From positions 1 to 25,832 of IMG/VR virus record IMGVR_UViG_3300022856_000032: a DNA stretch of 25,832 nt. One strand, given 5' to 3'. This DNA comes from a virus. The position numbers and the translations under genes were made by a program. The notes beneath the pieces were generated by a model that was not told where the DNA came from, did not search any database, and saw only the letters and a program-made list of their open reading frames with translations. Shown in pieces: positions 3,944 through 25,832 of this stretch; the first letter of the stretch is position 1, and every line of letters begins with the position of its first letter.

Positions 3944-5734
3944 TTAAGTGCTGTTACGTGTTGCTCGACCCCACGTACTATCCGTTGGGCGTGCCGTTTT
4001 TTCCCACACCGCACCAAAGTGCAGTAGTGATGGCAGGCTGAACGTCAAAACCTGCGTATCTGGGCTCACTACGATACCAAAGGCAATCGCATAAGCTGGG
4101 ATTGTAAATGTGGCTACTACAGCTGATGGTGTTACCAGAGTCTGTGCTGTGAGTGAATAGGCTGGAATACTGAATGTTGCCACCTGTGCAGCAACTGATA
4201 CCGTGTGGTCAAAGAGCACTGAATAAGCTGGCACCGTAAAGGTCGCCACCTGTGTAGCAGGATTCTGTGTTTGACCAAACTTTAGAGTGTATGTAGGGAT
4301 ACTAAACGTCGCCACTGGTGGCACACCTTGAGCAATAACCCATCCACGTTTAACGCTATAGGTAGGTACCGTGAATGTCGCCACCAATGCTGATGGCAAA
4401 AATGTAACGTCTGGTAAATCAACAGTGTACGTAGGCACAGTGAACGTCGCCACCTGTGCTGCTGGTGAGACCGAGAGCCCAGTGGCGACTGAATATGTAG
4501 GCAATGAGAAAGTTGCAATTTGAGCTGCTGCAGCAACTGAAAGTCCTGTTTTTGCTGCGTATGTAGGAACTGAAAACGTAGCAACTTGTGCTGCTGGGCT
4601 TACTGATATGTTGACCACTGATGAGTGCTCCACAACCAATTTAGGGTCTTGTGTCGTACCACTTACATCAGCAGAAGACGCTTGGACTTGTGTGTTATCA
4701 CGACTTCCATGTGTATTGGGGTCAATGTCATCTAAGTCAAGGTCGCACCGAGTACCTAACTTCGTGATGCCAGTTTTGCTGATGCTTGCCTCCCCTGTAG
4801 AGTTTAGTGTGATGTCGTTGTATTCAGATGCTGTGATGTCTCCATAGGCAGTATCTGATGCTTGGCGTGTTGTGCCTACCTGCCCGTAGTCGGCTGCTAC
4901 TAACGCTGTGTTGCTTGCTGGGGTAGAGTCTACTATAGCGAGTGCTGGCGTGTCAGAGAATGGGTCAGCTTTTGATGTAACATAGAAAGAAAGCGTGGCA
5001 CCAGTTATCGTGTCCGAGTCTCCGAGAGCAGAGGTATCAAACAATACAATAGAACGAGCTATTAAGTCCCATTCAGTTGATGAGTTGTTTGACCCCTCAA
5101 ACCTAAAAAGGTTTATAGCTGAACCAGCATCACTTGAACCATTACCTGCACCATTACGGATCGTTGTCCAATCGTCCCCACCAGAAGCCCCCAAGTCCCT
5201 TCTTACAATACCGTCAACAGAGGTACTCTCTGTGTGAGCATCGGGATAGAATGTGCTCGTGGTGTTTCCAATCTTTCCTTTCACAATCCGCTCATCAGAG
5301 TGGATATTTTTCATTACAGATAGGTTGTGTTCAATCACTTGCAGCAACGCCTCTTTGGGGTCTTCCCTAAAACGCTGCTCACGTTTTGTGTCTCTCCCCT
5401 CTATCCATTCACGCACAATATCTCCCTGTGGATCTGCTACGAGAATTGGTGGATTAAATATACGAAAACGCTCAACATCAACGCTACCATCAACACCAAA
5501 ACCAATCTGCTTGCCTTTTTTATCCCAACAACGAGCAAAGACCTCAATACCACCCTCAATCTTCTTGGTGTCAACAATCTGAATGTGGTTTTTTGCACGC
5601 TTTGTTTTACGAACTTTTCTTATTTTAGCAATTTCACGCCCCTTTAAGTTGGCACGTTGCTTTGAGTTCTTATTTTTTAAGGTATTGCGTATCATAGATT
5701 TGTATTGGGCTTTCGTACCCATCTCTGCCGTCAT
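3944..5734 (-). CDS. Large modular virion protein with nine ~22-residue repeats
   Basis: 596 residues in three parts. Residues 1-155 are basic, with a Lys/Arg-rich start (KGREIAKIRKVRKTKRAKNH). Residues about 156-372 resemble a DNRLRE-type beta-sandwich, with a start like TSTFYPDAHT and the core LIARSIVLFDTSALGDSDTI followed by GATLSFYVTS. Residues 378-575 consist of nine tandem repeats of 22-23 residues with the core [VI]ATF[ST][VIL]P[TA]Y; the last copy is diverged (VLTFSLPSL). The protein ends in a short Trp-containing tail. Such modules are typical of surface-exposed virion proteins (fibres, head or tail decorations). The start at 5734 (MTAEMGTK) is the first in-frame ATG; the second at residue 5 is also possible. 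No signal peptide or membrane segment. Confidence 0.6.
   Translation of the reverse strand: MTAEMGTKAQYKSMIRNTLKNKNSKQRANLKGREIAKIRKVRKTKRAKNHIQIVDTKKIEGGIEVFARCWDKKGKQIGFGVDGSVDVERFRIFNPPILVADPQGDIVREWIEGRDTKREQRFREDPKEALLQVIEHNLSVMKNIHSDERIVKGKIGNTTSTFYPDAHTESTSVDGIVRRDLGASGGDDWTTIRNGAGNGSSDAGSAINLFRFEGSNNSSTEWDLIARSIVLFDTSALGDSDTITGATLSFYVTSKADPFSDTPALAIVDSTPASNTALVAADYGQVGTTRQASDTAYGDITASEYNDITLNSTGEASISKTGITKLGTRCDLDLDDIDPNTHGSRDNTQVQASSADVSGTTQDPKLVVEHSSVVNISVSPAAQVATFSVPTYAAKTGLSVAAAAQIATFSLPTYSVATGLSVSPAAQVATFTVPTYTVDLPDVTFLPSALVATFTVPTYSVKRGWVIAQGVPPVATFSIPTYTLKFGQTQNPATQVATFTVPAYSVLFDHTVSVAAQVATFSIPAYSLTAQTLVTPSAVVATFTIPAYAIAFGIVVSPDTQVLTFSLPSLLHFGAVWEKTARPTDSTWGRATRNST
4010..4603 (-). 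repeat. Coding tandem repeats, nine units of about 66 bp
   Basis: These are the DNA units behind the nine amino-acid repeats in the virion protein. The conserved VATF core recurs at residues 384, 406, 428, 451, 474, 496, 518, 540 and 562, so the period is 22 codons with two 23-codon units. Protein conservation is much better than nucleotide conservation, which suggests an old expansion kept by selection rather than a recent slippage product. Confidence 0.8.
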
Positions 5735-13718: not shown

Positions 13719-14327
13719 GTTTGATTCAAAAAATGCTTGGGCAAACTTTTGACTGCACAAAGAGCGGAACTCCATATCGTTCTCTGGCACTGGCAATTCT
13801 TGAAACTCTGGGATGACGTGATAGTGGCTCTTGTGCATAAATGCCAGTGACGGCTTGGGTCTATTTGGTCGTGTGTAGAGCTCTGCAATCTTTGGTACAT
13901 CCTCCCAGTCGTTATACTCACGCTCTGGTATGTTGAACTCCCCCCACAATGCAGTTTGCTTAGTCCAAGGACTCCCATACCACCATGGCTCGTATTTGTA
14001 TCGTGGCTCTCCAAGGTAGTTTTTAAGCACTCCTCTTGCTGGATTTTCAATCACCCAAAAAGTAGGGTTTGCTTCCTTAATGATACGTTGGCACTCTTTC
14101 ACAAGAAACATTCCTTTGTCTGGGTCACGAGCCTTTCCATCACTGCGTGCAGTAGAGAACTCTGTACATACAGGATTTGCGAACACTCCATAAACATTAG
14201 GTGGTGCTGTGAAGTTCTCCACTCCAATCTCTCTCCCCACTAGAATGACCTCATAGTTTGGGTCATCTTGATAGGGTTTAGTATCAGAGCCAGTATCAGC
14301 ACACAGTTGGAGTATTATTTTACGCAT
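13713..14327 (-). CDS. C5-cytosine-methyltransferase-like protein (204 aa)
   Basis: Start ATG at 14327 overlaps the terminase stop by 8 bp (ATGCGTAA), a junction style used repeatedly here; the longer non-ATG start at 14360 is less likely. Recognisable motifs are PVCTEFS at about residues 52-58 with the candidate catalytic Cys54 (motif IV PC), ENP at 94-96 (motif VI-like EN), KQTALWG at 123-129 and a C-terminal SQKFAQAFFESN resembling motif X. The AdoMet-binding motif I near DTGSDTKPYQ is altered from the usual FxGxG, and there is no room for a normal target recognition domain. Phages encode short proteins of this type as DNA cytosine methylases. It may protect phage DNA from restriction. Activity is uncertain because of the altered motif I. 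Confidence 0.65.
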   Translation of the reverse strand: MRKIILQLCADTGSDTKPYQDDPNYEVILVGREIGVENFTAPPNVYGVFANPVCTEFSTARSDGKARDPDKGMFLVKECQRIIKEANPTFWVIENPARGVLKNYLGEPRYKYEPWWYGSPWTKQTALWGEFNIPEREYNDWEDVPKIAELYTRPNRPKPSLAFMHKSHYHVIPEFQELPVPENDMEFRSLCSQKFAQAFFESNR

Positions 14328-15840
14328 AGGGGTCGAGGTCACTACTCTGAATAGTGCCACTCGTGTTGCTTAGTGGCTTCTCGTAGAAACTGTGCTCACT
14401 GATGAGTGCACGTCCAAGGTTCTCAATCATGTGGTCATCTTTGTCGACTGGCTTTTCTTTTCGGTTGCGGTTGTCGCCAGTCTTGCCACGCCACTCATCC
14501 CAACGGTAGTGCTCAAACTCAAATATAGTTCTCTGGCAAGTATTGAAAATATAGAGCTCTGGTGGTCTCTGCATGTGCCCATTGATGATGTGGTGGTTCA
14601 ATGCCGTCTCAATCCTCTTATCACTGGCAGTACGTTGTTTTGGAGCAGGTAGGTAGGTAATACCCTCCGCACTCAACTGCTCGTCGAGGTTCTTATCATT
14701 GGAGCTGTGGTGTTGGTCTTTATTGAAAATCCAAGGATCAGCCCATCTACCACCAATACGATACTGGGTTGCCTTACTCTTGATTTTGGCTGCTAGGTCG
14801 GGTACATCGTCTGGTTGGTACCAAAGCTCATCTATGACGAACTTGTTGCCCTTACGGTCTACAGCGAGCCACAGTGCTGCATCTGGGTTACGTGGGTGAG
14901 GGTCGAGATACTCGTACACTACAAAATCCCTGTCGTTGATATTGAAAGGTGGGATGACGTGTATTTTTCTATCAAACTTTTTATACACAAGACCAATTAA
15001 GTGAGCAAACTTTCCATAGGCTCGTGCCTGCATTTCATCCTCTGGGTACTCCGCCACCATTCGGGCGATGTCCTCATGAGCGAGATGACCACGTACTCCG
15101 TGTTCTTTACAGGCACTCTCCACGTCTGCAGTTACATGATAAACACTACGTATTATTTTAACAGGCTCCTCGCCCTCACGTAGTACAACCTCGACCTCAA
15201 CCTCCCCCTTTGCAAACATGTCATACAAGTGAGCAGAGCCAGAAATTGGTGTGGCTGTAATGATTATTACACCACCTCGTCGCATACGAGCGATGGTAGC
15301 CTTGAGGATTGCATCTGGTGGCGGTTCATCAAACCATGCCCAGCCCAGTGTCACACCCTCAAACTCTGATGCGTCCTGCTGATATGTCATGATGTCGAAC
15401 TCCCAGCCAGTCTTGGTTTGCCACTTGCTCTCGTAGTGCTTGCCACCCTTTGAGGTTTTGTATTCACCTCTAGGAAACCAGAACTTGAGCTCATTCACCA
15501 CGTTCTTATCTACCAGAGCAGAGTCAGTGGTGATACGTCCACGCTTGAGGTATGGGAAGTCATTGAAAATACCACTGTCAAACCACTTGTTGGTACTTGG
15601 AAACATCATATTTGCCAGCATGTTTACTGCAGCAGCAGTCTTGCCTACACCGTTGGCAGCACTCAAAAACAAAATGAAATAGTCGTTACTCGCAAAGGCA
15701 TTGATATAATCCTCCACTACACCATTTGGCTCATAGTAGAGATACTTTTTATCACGCATGCGTATGAACTCCTCCTGCTCCATAGCCTTGAGACGTTGTG
15801 CTTTCAGTGCTTTTTCTTCTTCTTGAGTGAGTTCATCCAT
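14320..15840 (-). CDS. terL: Terminase large subunit (ATPase plus nuclease)
   Basis: 506 residues, normal for TerL. The ATPase part shows Walker A SAANGVGKT (60-68), Walker B WAWFDE (168-172 region) and the coupling motif TATP (195-198). The RNase H-like nuclease part shows a first Asp in EYLDPHP (D313), an Asp in FVIDELW, ADP near 367-369 and the late DKDDHMIENLGR (467-477). It translocates DNA into the prohead through the portal and cuts the concatemer. It is preceded by a small membrane protein gene and followed, with an 8-bp overlap, by the methyltransferase-like gene. The small subunit is encoded about 2.6 kb upstream, separated by several unrelated genes, which is an uncommon spacing. 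Confidence 0.9.
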   Translation of the reverse strand: MDELTQEEEKALKAQRLKAMEQEEFIRMRDKKYLYYEPNGVVEDYINAFASNDYFILFLSAANGVGKTAAAVNMLANMMFPSTNKWFDSGIFNDFPYLKRGRITTDSALVDKNVVNELKFWFPRGEYKTSKGGKHYESKWQTKTGWEFDIMTYQQDASEFEGVTLGWAWFDEPPPDAILKATIARMRRGGVIIITATPISGSAHLYDMFAKGEVEVEVVLREGEEPVKIIRSVYHVTADVESACKEHGVRGHLAHEDIARMVAEYPEDEMQARAYGKFAHLIGLVYKKFDRKIHVIPPFNINDRDFVVYEYLDPHPRNPDAALWLAVDRKGNKFVIDELWYQPDDVPDLAAKIKSKATQYRIGGRWADPWIFNKDQHHSSNDKNLDEQLSAEGITYLPAPKQRTASDKRIETALNHHIINGHMQRPPELYIFNTCQRTIFEFEHYRWDEWRGKTGDNRNRKEKPVDKDDHMIENLGRALISEHSFYEKPLSNTSGTIQSSDLDPYA

Positions 15841-16449: not shown

Positions 16450-17112
16450 TTACTTGATTTCATGAAATATGTTTTTACCCTCAAAATGTAGTGCCTCGTG
16501 CTGTAAGACGTGTGCTTTCAGTCCCTCGACCCAACCCTCGAAAGTTGCCACTCTCTCGCCTAGGAGCCCCTTTTTGAGATACTGATAGCGTACTCTGATG
16601 CCATAGCATCGCTTCACATTCTTAGCTTTCCTGTGACTGAAACTCATGCACCCCTCTGGTACATCAATCATGTTGCTGATTTTCTTATCGACCTGCACGA
16701 TGTCTACCTCCACCTTGGTCTTATTCTTGGGGTCTCTGGTGACCTTACGCTCTGGCACTGCTCTCACGATAGTGGCTGGTGCCTCGAGTATCTCTGCATT
16801 AAAGATTGTTTGAGCCTCAAAGAACGTGTTGTGTAGAGTCTGTTTACCTTTGGGGTCTATTATCTTGGGTGCCACCAACTCTTTCACCACTGTGAACAGC
16901 TTGATTGGGTGGTCGTGATTGACCATCTGGCAGTGAGCCACAGCAAAAGCCTTGTTGTGCTCACCCTCAAAGTGACCATTTTCTTTATCGAGCCACTCAA
17001 TCATTTCACGTGAAACCTCTTTGGCTCCTTTCCACTCGTCCCTTGTTTTGATAGGTAGACTCTTGGCATAAATACCCAGTCCGCTATCGTGTCTGTTTTT
17101 AGTGATTTCCAT
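16450..17112 (-). CDS. Peptide deformylase-like protein
   Basis: 220 residues. The three deformylase motifs appear in order: KAFAVAHCQ (54-62, motif GxGxAAxQ with Gly replaced by Ala but Gln62 kept), EGCMS (153-157, exact EGCxS with the metal ligand Cys155) and QHEALH (204-209, HExxH with metal ligands His205 and His209 and catalytic Glu206). The enzyme class removes the formyl group from N-terminal methionine of new proteins, which implies a host that starts translation with formyl-methionine, so a bacterium. Spacing between motifs 1 and 2 is longer than in typical enzymes because of an insert at about 100-145 with Lys-rich parts. Phage deformylases are known from marine phages. Activity is likely but motif 1 is degenerate. 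Confidence 0.75.
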   Translation of the reverse strand: MEITKNRHDSGLGIYAKSLPIKTRDEWKGAKEVSREMIEWLDKENGHFEGEHNKAFAVAHCQMVNHDHPIKLFTVVKELVAPKIIDPKGKQTLHNTFFEAQTIFNAEILEAPATIVRAVPERKVTRDPKNKTKVEVDIVQVDKKISNMIDVPEGCMSFSHRKAKNVKRCYGIRVRYQYLKKGLLGERVATFEGWVEGLKAHVLQHEALHFEGKNIFHEIK

Positions 17113-20980: not shown

Positions 20981-21603
20981 AACATTTTTCCATTATGTAC
21001 ACCTCCAAAGTTTACCCATTCGTGTGGGTCTCGCTCCCCGACCAGTGAGCGATTTTCTCCTTTGTAGTTAGTAAATACCTCATCAATGGTGGTAGTGAGT
21101 CCAGTCCGCTCCTCAATGTTGTTACGGAATACCGTCACCTCTGATGGTACTCGATACCCCTTGAGAGCTTTGAAACCTCGAGTAGTAATCAGCCACCCTT
21201 TCTCTCTGTCGTGTTTTCCGTCCTCATTCTTAACCTTTGCAATGAGCCCAAGAGTCCTGCATTGAGTGGTTCGATGCCGTTCACAGTCGTGGAAATCTTG
21301 AGACACCACGTGTACTTGGTTTGCATCTTGGAATGTTTTACCCTCTCTCATTCCCTTTGCCACTGCATCACCCATGTGCTTGAGTAGTAATGCGTTGAAA
21401 AAGTCGAGTTTATGAACGTACTCTGTCATGTTTTCATTACAGTTTGGGCACTTGGTTTGATCATTGAGAGCTTTCCATGACTGTGCTACGCATGCTCGCA
21501 AGTACCCTGCACTCTCAAATGCCTTTGGATTGCTCTCATGCAGCTTCACAAGGAACTCCCAGAGCTTTGGCAATTTGCCTCTGTTGTGTTGTTTTTTACT
21601 CAT
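20977..21603 (-). CDS. Zinc-motif plus winged-helix-like hypothetical protein (208 aa)
   Basis: Begins MSKKQHNRGKLPKLWEFLVK. Around residue 52 there is a CPNC pair, followed later by DFHDCERHRTTQC, which may supply further metal ligands. From about residue 115 a winged-helix pattern follows (CRTLGLIAKVKNEDG; GWLITTRGFKALKGYRVPSE). I recognise this as a recurring uncharacterised phage protein type encoded near replication genes, but cannot name a family. The gene starts in the coupling junction AAAGAAAACAAATCATGA after the DnaC-like gene. A DNA-binding role in replication is inferred. Confidence 0.55.
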   Translation of the reverse strand: MSKKQHNRGKLPKLWEFLVKLHESNPKAFESAGYLRACVAQSWKALNDQTKCPNCNENMTEYVHKLDFFNALLLKHMGDAVAKGMREGKTFQDANQVHVVSQDFHDCERHRTTQCRTLGLIAKVKNEDGKHDREKGWLITTRGFKALKGYRVPSEVTVFRNNIEERTGLTTTIDEVFTNYKGENRSLVGERDPHEWVNFGGVHNGKML

Positions 21604-22139
21604 GATTTGTTTTCTTTAGCTTTTAAGAGTCTCCTGTCCTCACCTTTGAGATGAACCACATCACAGAGCTCGACTATTCGTGATGCTGTACGGTCTCCAA
21701 CTCTGTCAGCAAGTTCAGCCACTGAAAGATTAGAGGTGAAAATCACAGGCATCATTTTGGTATAGCGGTCATTGATGATGAGATAGAACACCTCCGCCAC
21801 GTAGTCAGTAATCCTTTCAGCTCCAATATCATCGAGAATGAGCACCCCTTTGTATTCAGTCAGCCTTTCGTCCCATCGTCTTTTGTCGTATACAGAGCGG
21901 TCAAAGTCTCTTTTGATGTCAAAGATGAGCTCTGTGGTGTTGTGAATTGTGTTCTGTATATTGAGCTCATCCAACTTTTTCTGTATGCCATAGGCAATGT
22001 GAGTCTTTCCAGTACCTACGTCACCATGGATGTAGAGACCTTTGCGACTCTCTTTGATTTTCTCAATAAACTTTTGAACATTTGCAGGTACGTCAGCCCA
22101 TTCTGCGTGTTCGTACCGTTTTGGTGTTGATCTGTTCAT
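21600..22139 (-). CDS. DnaC/IstB-like AAA+ helicase loader (179 aa)
   Basis: Walker A GDVGTGKT (39-46), Walker B VLILDD (99-104), sensor 1 FTSN (134-137) and an arginine-finger region GDRTASRI (148-155) are all present in the expected order and spacing. The protein lacks the N-terminal helicase-interaction domain of E. coli DnaC and is close in size to short phage loaders. Its role would be to place the host or phage replicative helicase at the origin opened by the initiator encoded directly upstream; the two genes overlap by 4 bp (ATGA). Confidence 0.8.
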   Translation of the reverse strand: MNRSTPKRYEHAEWADVPANVQKFIEKIKESRKGLYIHGDVGTGKTHIAYGIQKKLDELNIQNTIHNTTELIFDIKRDFDRSVYDKRRWDERLTEYKGVLILDDIGAERITDYVAEVFYLIINDRYTKMMPVIFTSNLSVAELADRVGDRTASRIVELCDVVHLKGEDRRLLKAKENKS

Positions 22140-22795
22140 ACTCCGCTGTACTTACCTGCTTTGCTAGTGTCGACCCCTTTTCTTCTAGCCCATGAGAGGA
22201 TTGTTGCGTAGTGGCTCTTATACTTGTAGCCCTTGCTCTCGATGCCAGTATCGAGCTCCTCAATCATCACCTCTCTGTTTGTCCCCAGTTTATCCCCAAG
22301 TTTCTCATACTCATCAGATGTCAGTTTCACTTTCTGAAACTCACCATAATTGACCTTGTTTGTAGCCGTTTTTTCCTCTTTTTTAGGCTTTTCTTTATAG
22401 CCTATCGATAGGCTATCTATAGCCTCTGATTTATGATTTATGATTTCTGATTTAATCTTTAATATATGAGGCGGTACTTTTTTCAAGTATTTTTCGATTG
22501 AAAGCTGCACCTTTACGTTGTTGGCTACGTTCTGATGCTCTGGGTAGTTTGGAATGATGACCCAGCCATCAACGTACGCCACTTTTGGTACCAACTCTTT
22601 GAACAACTTATTTACCAAGTCCTCTTTATATTTTAGATACATCACCATCTCAACCATTGGCAGTCGATACATACCGGAGATCTCGGTGTTTTTGTTGGTG
22701 ATGAGGTACATATACAGCCTCTGTGCTTTGTCAGATAGTTCAATGAACCACTCATCCTCCCATATCACTGTCTTCACCATTCTAGTGTGAGCCAA
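22136..22795 (-). CDS. Phage replication initiator (DnaD/replisome-organiser-like) carrying a probable origin
   Basis: 219 residues. The N-terminal 95 residues read as a winged-helix domain (MAHTRMVKTVIWEDEWFIEL; LYMYLITNKNTEISGMYRLP; WVIIPNYPEHQN), like phage replisome organisers. A Lys/Glu-rich linker follows, and residues 152-212 (FQKVKLTSDEYEKLGDKLGT; HYATILSWARRKG) match the C-terminal helical region common in such initiators. The gene for a helicase loader follows with a 4-bp overlap, the classic initiator-loader pair. The linker is encoded by AT-rich tandem 7-mers and three 11-mers, probably the origin, as in other phages whose origin lies within the initiator gene. Confidence 0.75.
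   Translation of the reverse strand: MAHTRMVKTVIWEDEWFIELSDKAQRLYMYLITNKNTEISGMYRLPMVEMVMYLKYKEDLVNKLFKELVPKVAYVDGWVIIPNYPEHQNVANNVKVQLSIEKYLKKVPPHILKIKSEIINHKSEAIDSLSIGYKEKPKKEEKTATNKVNYGEFQKVKLTSDEYEKLGDKLGTNREVMIEELDTGIESKGYKYKSHYATILSWARRKGVDTSKAGKYSGV
22397..22454. other. Probable replication origin inside the initiator gene
   Basis: Three 11-mers lie in a row: ATAGCCTATCG (22397-22407), ATAGGCTATCT (22408-22418) and ATAGCCTCTGA (22419-22429). They are followed by four perfect tandem 7-mers on the plus strand: TGATTTA, TGATTTA, TGATTTC, TGATTTA (22427-22454), then more A/T-rich DNA up to about 22475. Iterons beside an AT-rich unwinding region within an initiator gene is a known phage origin layout. 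The constraint on the coding frame (a low-complexity linker) supports a second function for this DNA. Confidence 0.5.
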
Positions 22796-22856: not shown

Positions 22857-24842
22857 TTATGCTTTATACCCTTGGAGTCTTTGTAGACCTCTCCTGCTTG
22901 GGTCTTGAAATAACATGTCACCCTTTCCGACCAACTCCTCTGCACCTGCAACATCCAAAACAATTTGGCTGTCGGTACGTGATGAAGTCATAAAGGCAAT
23001 TCGTGTTGGTAGGTTTGCTTTGATAAGCCCAGTCACTACGTCCACTGATGGTCTCTGTGTAGCAATGATTAGGTGAATACCTGCTGCTCTACCCTCTTGA
23101 GCCAGTCTCACAATCATGAGCTCTGCCTCACTTGGTTCACCAATACTCTTTGTGAGTATCAAACTGGCAAACTCATCAATGACCACCACCAATTTCGGCA
23201 TTTGCTCCACTTGGTCTGCATTGTAGTCATCGATGTTACGATATTTTGCTTTCTGCAATTTTTCGTACCGCACATCCATTTCCTCAACCAACCACTTGAG
23301 AGCTTTGATAGACTCTGCATGTTTGTGCAAGATTCGAGACTGCACATGTGGTTCGTCTGCGAAAGGCATGAGCTCAACTCTCTTGGGGTCTATGAGCACC
23401 AGATTTAGCTCCTCTGGCGTGTTCTGTGCAATAAGGCTGTGGAGTATCACATTGAGCATTACGCTCTTACCAGAGCCTGTAGAGCCTGCTATGAGCAAGT
23501 GTGGCATCTCTCTCAAGTCCTTTGTGACTGTCTTACCATAAACATCAACTCCGATTGGAATGTTGAGTGTGCTCGGTTCGAGTCCTGTACTCCCTGCAGG
23601 AATACCATCAGCAAAGAAATCAATACGCTTTCTGTCCTCATTTGGAACTTCGATACCAACCTTGTCGGTACCCATAATTGGAGCCTGCACACGTATACTC
23701 TTTGCCTCAAGAGCAATAGCAATATCCTTTGCGTGAGTTTCGATAGATTTCATCCTCACTCCTCGAGATGGCTTGAGTGTATACATCACTACTGATGAGT
23801 TGCGATGTGTCTCCTCCATCTTTACTGGGATGCCAAACTCTTGGAGCTTGAGTCGTATCTTTTCCTCTGGGTCAAGATTTCTGTTTGCCAACTTGTCTGG
23901 TGCACTCTCTTGGTAGCTTTTCTCTACCACCACAGTGTCAGCCTTTGTTTTGTGTATCACCTTTGGTGCTGCAGCAGTGATGAGGTTGTCTCGATACGCA
24001 AGCCATGAGTCCTTTCCATCAAACATATCTGATGGATTGGGCAAAAAGATAGCGTTCGGGTTCGTCAAAAACTCCACAGCATCGATGTAGAGTTGGTACA
24101 TAGCAGCAAACTCACCTCTGATGTCACTGTAATCAATGACATAGTATTGGCTTTGTGCACTGCCGTCTTTATTCTTTGAGATTTTTGTTTCTCTGTAGAG
24201 GATTGCCACTGGCTCCTCTTTCAACTCCTCACGTGTGATAGTGAAGTTGAAAAATGATTGACTCAATTTTGTTGGGTCAGTTATTTCCTCCGAGTCAGTG
24301 AATGAACGAATAAACTTGTGATCCTCAATGAATAGAGAACCCTTTGGGTATTCTCTCCCTGCAAAAGTTTCCTTTCTTGTTGAACGCCAAATCACGTCTG
24401 AATAACACTTGGCTGGTATAGGCATCTCTGCCCCCTCGTCAGTGTGTATCACCTGTGTGAAGCTCTCCTCAACGTGCAGTATTTCTCTCTTGTCCCAGTC
24501 TGGTGTCTCCTCAAAGTAGAAGTTCATCGCTGCGGTGTATTCTTTCACCATCTTTTCTCTGCTTCCTGTTTTGCCAAAATCAATGGCAACGTCAGAGTAG
24601 CTGTCAATGGCTTTCATCCCCTCATCAATCGCACCGTTCACATCTGAACACTCACCCTTGAGATACACCTCAAGAGCTTTGTGACATGCTTGACCCACGA
24701 CTCCCGATGGTGACATCGTGCTCTCGTAGATTTTCAGCATGTACTTCTTTTTCCATGCTAGTGGATTCCTACACAACAAGCCCAATGAGCTGTGACTCAT
24801 GTGGTCGATTGGTGGTTCCGTGGCGATATTTTTCTCTGTCAT
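22857..24842 (-). CDS. Fusion of a PD-(D/E)XK nuclease (RecB/Cas4-like) with an FtsK/SpoIIIE DNA translocase
   Basis: 661 residues in one uninterrupted frame. Residues about 15-290 show nuclease motifs: SHSSLGLLC start, G..H (GVVGQACHKALE, His54), D149 in YSDVIW, the D-x-K motif IEDHK (D174, K176) and Q195 (LSQSFF, QxxxY-like with Phe). Cys clusters for an Fe-S site are absent. Residues about 325-405 match the FtsK alpha domain (YTLKPSRGVRMKSIETHAKD; SIRVQAPIMGTDKVGIEVPN). Residues 425-661 are the RecA-like beta domain: Walker A GSTGSGKS (453-460), IDPKRVEL, Walker B LVVVIDE (551-557), ATQRPSVDVVTG and GKGDMLF. No gamma domain (KOPS/SRS reading) and no membrane segments. It would be a soluble motor that pumps double-stranded DNA while cutting. 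Located next to the origin region. I know no described phage protein with this fusion. Confidence 0.85.
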   Translation of the reverse strand: MTEKNIATEPPIDHMSHSSLGLLCRNPLAWKKKYMLKIYESTMSPSGVVGQACHKALEVYLKGECSDVNGAIDEGMKAIDSYSDVAIDFGKTGSREKMVKEYTAAMNFYFEETPDWDKREILHVEESFTQVIHTDEGAEMPIPAKCYSDVIWRSTRKETFAGREYPKGSLFIEDHKFIRSFTDSEEITDPTKLSQSFFNFTITREELKEEPVAILYRETKISKNKDGSAQSQYYVIDYSDIRGEFAAMYQLYIDAVEFLTNPNAIFLPNPSDMFDGKDSWLAYRDNLITAAAPKVIHKTKADTVVVEKSYQESAPDKLANRNLDPEEKIRLKLQEFGIPVKMEETHRNSSVVMYTLKPSRGVRMKSIETHAKDIAIALEAKSIRVQAPIMGTDKVGIEVPNEDRKRIDFFADGIPAGSTGLEPSTLNIPIGVDVYGKTVTKDLREMPHLLIAGSTGSGKSVMLNVILHSLIAQNTPEELNLVLIDPKRVELMPFADEPHVQSRILHKHAESIKALKWLVEEMDVRYEKLQKAKYRNIDDYNADQVEQMPKLVVVIDEFASLILTKSIGEPSEAELMIVRLAQEGRAAGIHLIIATQRPSVDVVTGLIKANLPTRIAFMTSSRTDSQIVLDVAGAEELVGKGDMLFQDPSRRGLQRLQGYKA

Positions 24843-25356: not shown

Positions 25357-25544
25357 GATTTTTTTGGTTTAGGGTTGTACTCATACAGCCAGTGCATACG
25401 AATAAAACCCACGATGATGCGTGTCTGCATGTTCTGCATAAACGCAGCAGGGATAGGGCGACTCCACTGTGTGTGGTAGATGCTCTTACCCTGCTTGGCG
25501 AGCTCGCATACTCGCCTCACTTTTGTAATTGACTTACCCCTCAT
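25353..25544 (-). CDS. Small basic hypothetical protein (63 aa)
   Basis: Begins MRGKSITKVRRVCELAKQGK and ends NPKPKKS; the middle (TQWSRPIPAAFMQNMQTRII, then VGFIRMHWLYEY) is aromatic with no clear membrane span. No family recognised. ATG at 25544 overlaps the C2H2 gene by 11 bp (ATGAGGGGTAA), the same overlap type as the one proposed for the ParB-like gene. Confidence 0.6.
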   Translation of the reverse strand: MRGKSITKVRRVCELAKQGKSIYHTQWSRPIPAAFMQNMQTRIIVGFIRMHWLYEYNPKPKKS

Positions 25545-25832
25545 GAGTCTTGAGGTGCTTAGTAAGTCCAGCTTTAGTTTTCACCACTTTGTCACACCCA
25601 TCGTGTGTGCAGGGAAAAGTAGCAGCTGGTGCTGGTGTTTCAATCTGCACATCATCCTCACTGTCGGTAGCATCAACAGCCTCTGCTAAAGGTTTCCGTT
25701 TGCTGTATGAGCCATCTTTCACCTCACCCTCTACCCTCTTTGCGTCTTTTTTGTTGGCAAACTTTGAACCGTTCTCAACAACCTCAACCTGCATATCTTC
25801 TTTGATACCAATACCTCTCAACGCATCTGGTG
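25534..25832 (-). CDS. C-terminal C2H2 zinc-finger protein (5' end off window)
   Basis: The frame is open to the right edge (PDA before LRGIGIKEDMQVEVV), so a start at the in-frame TTG at 25821 is not needed and the gene probably continues beyond the window. The visible part has an acidic/Ser-rich middle (AVDATDSEDDVQIETPAPAA) and a C-terminal finger CTHDGCDKVVKTKAGLTKHL then KTH with C-x4-C-x12-H-x3-H spacing. KTKAGLTKH is identical to the string in the finger of the small terminase. One finger alone binds DNA weakly, so a partner or dimer is expected. Role unknown; it could regulate early genes. Confidence 0.6.
   Translation of the reverse strand, partial: PDALRGIGIKEDMQVEVVENGSKFANKKDAKRVEGEVKDGSYSKRKPLAEAVDATDSEDDVQIETPAPAATFPCTHDGCDKVVKTKAGLTKHLKTHEG

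Follow-up and report, generated by a model that had tools for sequence, protein, structure and literature searches.

The locus analyzed here raises the question of what a phage does with a protein that joins a nuclease to an FtsK-type DNA pump. The window is the whole of an IMG/VR virus record (25,832 bases), and its minus strand carries an unbroken ORF of 661 aa at 22857-24842. The first-pass annotation, which gave no strand, described the product as a RecB/Cas4-like nuclease fused to a soluble FtsK motor. The joining of a soluble FtsK alpha-beta motor to a nuclease was borne out by Pfam (FtsK_alpha, FtsK_SpoIIIE and PDDEXK_1) and by the predicted fold, and the motifs that had been named were all found, including Q195. 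The AlphaFold2 model of the whole protein, made with the family alignment, had a pLDDT of 85.8. The features of the gene are as follows.

22857-24842, minus strand: fusion gene, PD-(D/E)XK nuclease plus FtsK alpha-beta motor, 661 aa (ORF; Pfam and PHROGs; the same fusion on 40 further contigs)
23967-24842, minus strand: nuclease half, residues 1-292 (Pfam PDDEXK_1, 23.3 bits; phrog_1218/69 exonuclease; pLDDT 90.3; AdnA/RecE/AddB fold)
24681-24683, minus strand: nuclease motif His54 (invariant, 41/41)
24396-24398, minus strand: nuclease metal ligand Asp149 (invariant, 41/41)
24315-24323, minus strand: nuclease D174-x-K176 motif (D and K invariant, 41/41)
23874-23966, minus strand: flexible linker, residues 293-323 (pLDDT below 50 at 294-313, about 20 residues, in the full model)
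23640-23873, minus strand: FtsK alpha domain, residues 324-401 (Pfam PF17854, E 8e-19)
22869-23582, minus strand: FtsK beta (RecA-like ATPase) domain, residues 421-658 (PF01580, E 7e-48; PaFtsK Z 41.8 for 321-661)
23463-23486, minus strand: Walker A, residues 453-460, GSTGSGKS (K459 and S460 invariant, 41/41)
23172-23192, minus strand: Walker B, residues 551-557 (D556 and E557 invariant, 41/41)

In their modeled fold and their H...D...(D/E)xK...Q motifs, residues 1-292 are a RecB/RecE-type PD-(D/E)XK nuclease. In the full-length Pfam search, PDDEXK_1 matched only the start of the domain (residues 14-109); the N half alone passed the cut-off of 22 bits, 26 of 26 relatives matched the profile, the best at 1.2e-17, and PHROGs named the N half 'exonuclease'. 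The AlphaFold2 model of this half (pTM 0.87) was most similar to the nuclease domain of AdnA from AdnAB (Z 15.8), followed by RecE (14.6) and AddB (13.6), with weaker matches to Dna2 (13.2), Cas4 (about 11) and lambda exonuclease (8.7); the listed matches did not include NurA. The PD-(D/E)XK fold claimed for the N half was thus upheld by structure prediction and by the Pfam profile. E125 was also invariant in the 41 fusions, and Q195 and K220 were each kept in 40; chance motif matches were ruled out by the fold together with this conservation. No alignment column had Cys in more than 8 of 28 members, so the protein lacks a conserved cysteine set and with it an Fe-S cluster of the Cas4/AddB kind. 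The earlier label was supported as regards a RecB/RecE-type nuclease. One relative (L026, 7902-9899) is short of about 50 nuclease-half residues after the Q motif and retains H, D and D-x-K, and it is possibly a nuclease-altered variant.

Residues 324-661 constitute, as modeled, a complete FtsK alpha-beta motor. The FtsK_SpoIIIE match spans residues 421-600, PHROGs described the C half as 'FtsK/SpoIIIE-like', and model residues 321-661 superimposed on the Pseudomonas FtsK motor with an rmsd of 2.1 over 334 residues. HerA matched the motor half with a Z of about 20 versus 42 for FtsK. The arginine finger R585 and the sensor Q596 were invariant in 41/41. The DNA contacts of loop II (PaFtsK R632 and K643) were kept in 38-40 of the 41 fusions, whereas those of loop I (PaFtsK K657 and R661) were not conserved, so the details of translocation may differ from those of FtsK. 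As had been claimed, the gamma domain and the membrane anchor are both absent: Pfam gave no FtsK_gamma match in the fusion protein, whose C-terminus falls just past the beta domain, and no transmembrane-like stretch was present (highest 19-residue hydropathy 1.3). Charged, variable inserts of about 20-60 residues follow Walker B in L001, L011-L017, L020-L022, L028, L042 and other members.

Both halves were encoded in one ORF on 41 distinct contigs (window included). Scans of viral contigs gave about 30 full-length fusions, and more were added by a query with the nuclease half alone. An assembly chimera or frameshift, which the first-pass annotation had named among the findings that would refute its claim, was ruled out because 41 contigs carry the fusion. 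In the nuclease-only scan of viral contigs, all ORFs uncut by a contig end continued into the motor, and no unfused relative of the nuclease half was seen. INPHARED phages and PLSDB plasmids gave matches to the motor half only, and no record there reached 80% query coverage. Distances in the N half and the C half were correlated (Mantel r 0.80; none of 2000 permutations reached this value), and within each clade as well, indicating at the sequence level that the nuclease and motor halves co-evolve. In an unrooted tree of the motor half containing the 41 fused motors and cellular FtsK from three phyla, with no root inferred, all of the fused motors lay on one side of one branch (94/98 support; 95% of bootstrap trees), which fits a single old fusion event. 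Between the window and its relative L010, dN/dS in the motor half was 0.08; in the nuclease half, synonymous change was saturated and pN was 0.18.

In one member (L002, IMGVR_UViG_3300028534_000005) the fusion lies in one ORF only if TGA is read as sense. TGA is sense in many genes of this contig; TGG occurs at 4.1 per 1000, or about 12 with TGA added, and this tryptophan frequency favors Trp over Gly as the meaning of TGA. In BFVD, virus sp. ctkyY8 has both modules as two proteins (A0A8S5RDL0 and A0A8S5RET9), and by analogy with L002 the split is likely a recoded stop.

The surroundings of the gene bear on its function, and the relevant neighbors in the window are the following.

25534-25832, minus strand: 3' part of the upstream RecT-like annealase gene, truncated at the contig end (56% identity to the L010 homologue)
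22136-22795, minus strand: DnaD-like/replisome-organizer gene, downstream of the fusion (phrog_13246, 3e-10; phrog_1701, 7.5e-8)
21600-22139, minus strand: DnaC-like helicase loader, downstream of the fusion (phrog_50, 1.4e-39)
14320-15840, minus strand: terminase large subunit, the phage's own packaging motor (phrog_10250 and phrog_5653, 2e-8)

Wherever a fusion locus had upstream sequence (40/40), searches with local HMMs from three annealase clusters placed a same-strand RecT/Bet-type annealase ORF immediately upstream of the fusion. The fusion therefore occupies the position of the exonuclease in a phage exonuclease-annealase module, and adds a dsDNA pump to it. The annealases in this slot belong to several PHROG families, represented by phrog_148 (up to 2e-68), phrog_4171/561 and phrog_2780/252/2449. 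The gap between annealase and fusion ranges from -140 to +1410 nt, and the annealase 3' end overlaps the fusion start in most loci; in the second clade this overlap makes the exact start codon of the fusion uncertain. The fragment in the window comprises the last 98 residues and aligns with residues 262-364 of the full-length L010 annealase (4116-5276), which matches the RecT-like annealases of phrog_4171 at 1e-17. A C2H2-type zinc-finger motif (CTHDGCDKVVKTKAGLTKHLKTH), unusual in a phage annealase, ends the protein in both the window (25534-25600, minus strand) and L010. The position just ahead of replication-initiation genes, noted in the first reading of the locus, agrees with the DnaD-like and DnaC-like genes downstream, and a DnaD-like initiator comes after the fusion in many relatives. 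Elsewhere in the window, 16450-17112 (minus strand) codes for a protein of 220 aa, which in its C-terminal part is similar to phage peptide deformylase (phrog_2890, 4e-7).

Exonuclease-annealase pairs are textbook components of phages. Like RecE-RecT and lambda Exo-Bet, the fusion locus places a PD-(D/E)XK exonuclease gene beside that of a RecT/Bet-type annealase, and RecE is among the close folds. However, the exonucleases of these two systems have no motor, whereas the fusion has an FtsK alpha-beta motor, and the order here is annealase and then exonuclease. As a control, the RecT homologue also adjoins a RecE-like exonuclease in the isolated phages Bhagsy (gp46-47) and APunk (gp51-52), and the Bhagsy exonuclease contains PDDEXK_1.

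RecBCD or AddAB had been offered as the functional likeness. RecBCD, AddAB and AdnAB do fuse an ATP motor to a RecB-type nuclease for end processing, as here, but those motors belong to the SF1 helicases, which are unrelated to FtsK. HerA-NurA, a HerA/FtsK-superfamily ring motor with a nuclease at the DNA exit, is the closer working analogue, although it consists of two cellular proteins and its motor is of another branch, whereas the fusion is one phage protein with an FtsK alpha domain. Cellular FtsK/SpoIIIE shares the complete alpha-beta motor (about 40% identity to PaFtsK) and differs in having the anchor and gamma domain. Nuclease and FtsK-type motor are also found in one polypeptide in the 'HerA/FtsK capture' proteins DndH/SspH, some of which captured a cellular FtsK alpha-beta motor; in DndH the captured HerA/FtsK domain belongs to the same protein as a restriction nuclease (PMC10853773). 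In contrast to the 661-aa fusion, these are defense proteins of 1500+ aa with several more domains and DndF/G or Ssp partners. The PADLOC SspH models matched the fusion protein over the motor region only, and no Dnd/Ssp partner gene was recognised. In line with the earlier claim of novelty, no phage counterpart was found in the collections and papers searched, and none of the papers described a nuclease-FtsK fusion next to an annealase in a phage, with most subscription papers and all bioRxiv preprints outside that search. Nuclease-FtsK fusions and phage exonuclease-annealase pairs are each known, and their combination appears to be undescribed.

Our results indicate that, with good probability, the fusion acts as the exonuclease in an exonuclease-annealase module for phage recombination, with a captured FtsK motor to power it. 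We infer that the protein would form hexamers, translocate DNA, cut it and hand it over to the annealase. Six copies would probably assemble as an FtsK ring encircling double-stranded DNA, and, driven by ATP hydrolysis, the DNA would enter on the beta side and leave on the alpha side, where nuclease domains tethered at the exit would receive it. The tethered nucleases would chew the DNA from an end, baring single strands, and the adjoining RecT/Bet-type annealase would coat and pair these strands in recombination-dependent replication or phage DNA repair. The FtsK motor takes in dsDNA on the beta side and pushes it out on the alpha side, where the alpha ring makes the exit contacts (PMC7321959). 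The point at which the nuclease joins the motor, the alpha-domain N terminus, is on the exit side. Since DNA would leave where the nuclease is attached, the fusion probably pumps DNA ends into its own cutter, by analogy with HerA-NurA, in which HerA drives DNA into the nuclease (PMC12977600). However, HerA-NurA of T. kodakarensis digests both strands, so that its products lack overhangs (PMC12977600). An annealase would be an ill-suited partner if the products of the fusion were of this kind. FtsK is a dsDNA translocase with no known unwinding activity, which also counts against the baring of strands. The varying loop I contacts and the shortened nuclease half of L026 weigh against this reading as well.

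The motor might instead track host or rival DNA for the nuclease to break, making the protein a host-DNA destroyer or an anti-competitor restriction enzyme, a mode of action that has been proposed for HerA-nuclease and DndH/SspH defense systems. Motor-nuclease pairing does also occur in defense, as in HerA-DUF4297 (PMC11291478) and DndH (PMC10853773), and SspH models match the motor half at up to 194 bits. However, this match is limited to the motor region, the nuclease belongs with the recombination nucleases RecE and AdnA, the annealase is a universal neighbor and replication genes lie downstream, so that this role seems unlikely. Even less probable is the processing of concatemers or genome ends for packaging, in which the pump would move replicated DNA and the nuclease would trim or resolve it before the terminase acts. 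Although a single protein holding a dsDNA pump and a nuclease would suit such a task, and terminase large subunits are likewise nuclease-motor proteins, the window phage already has a portal, a terminase large subunit and what is probably the small one, which makes a packaging-motor role for the fusion unlikely; moreover, the fusion gene lies in the replication/recombination cluster and not in the packaging cluster. The first-pass annotation had listed both of these roles besides the processing of replication intermediates, and the annealase upstream in 40/40 loci points to the exonuclease role in a recombination module rather than to either of the two.

The motor could also be vestigial, or a mere oligomerisation ring for the nuclease resembling the lambda exonuclease toroid, with no ATP-driven translocation. 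Lambda exonuclease is a processive ring that works without ATP, and the variable loop I contacts would agree with a motor that no longer moves DNA. Against this, Walker A, Walker B, the arginine finger and the sensor Q are invariant in 41/41 despite deep divergence, and the motor half is under purifying selection (the low dN/dS versus L010); we rate this as marginally the least probable of the readings. Our preferred reading remains a recombination exonuclease driven by its FtsK motor.

For these phages of 35-40 kb, Patescibacteria are a tentative suggestion as hosts. A search of genome contigs found four MAG contigs with the fusion, two of Patescibacteria and the others of Fermentibacteria and Bacteroidia, and one of the four is of equal length (35,898 b) to a virus record. 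Compared with FtsK of Bacteroidota or Fermentibacteria, that of Patescibacteria was closer to the window motor (up to 52% identity, E 4e-95). This assignment is only a suggestion because the MAG taxa are mixed, the binning of phage contigs is unreliable, and just 1 of 380 Patescibacteria genomes had the fusion at E 1e-60.

Taken together, this fusion family of uncultivated phages probably represents, in a motor-driven form, the enzyme that initiates recombination of phage DNA. Known phage recombination exonucleases are ATP-independent, and a conserved exonuclease family equipped with a dsDNA pump would couple a motor to end resection in a further way. Phage recombination would join conjugation, secretion and defense among the reported roles of captured FtsK motors, and the protein might serve as a single-protein processive exonuclease for recombineering. 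It also poses the mechanistic question of how single strands could come from a motor not known to unwind DNA. A broader proposal, to which we give even chances, is that the fusion is a phage machine for resecting DNA ends that arose independently of RecBCD, AddAB and HerA-NurA. It would be a homohexamer whose FtsK pump feeds the attached RecE-type nucleases and which passes single strands to an annealase, and its phages might infect hosts, perhaps Patescibacteria, without such machinery.

Bhagsy was considered as a split (Rosetta-stone) version of the fusion, with RecE, RecT and an 'FtsK-like DNA translocase' in one cluster. This candidate was rejected since the 'translocase' has the FtsK gamma domain only and no motor. 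The protein, gp50 of this Mycobacterium phage (L139, 3959-5023), has about 100 relatives, carries the gamma domain at its C-terminus, lies a few genes past RecE-RecT and has two distant matches named sliding clamp. Its name is likely an annotation error, and it is possible that gp50 is a KOPS-reading recombination factor. In addition, two Omegavirus mycobacteriophages (L004 and L005) each have a lone FtsK motor gene near a gene for a Ku-like DNA-end-binding protein.
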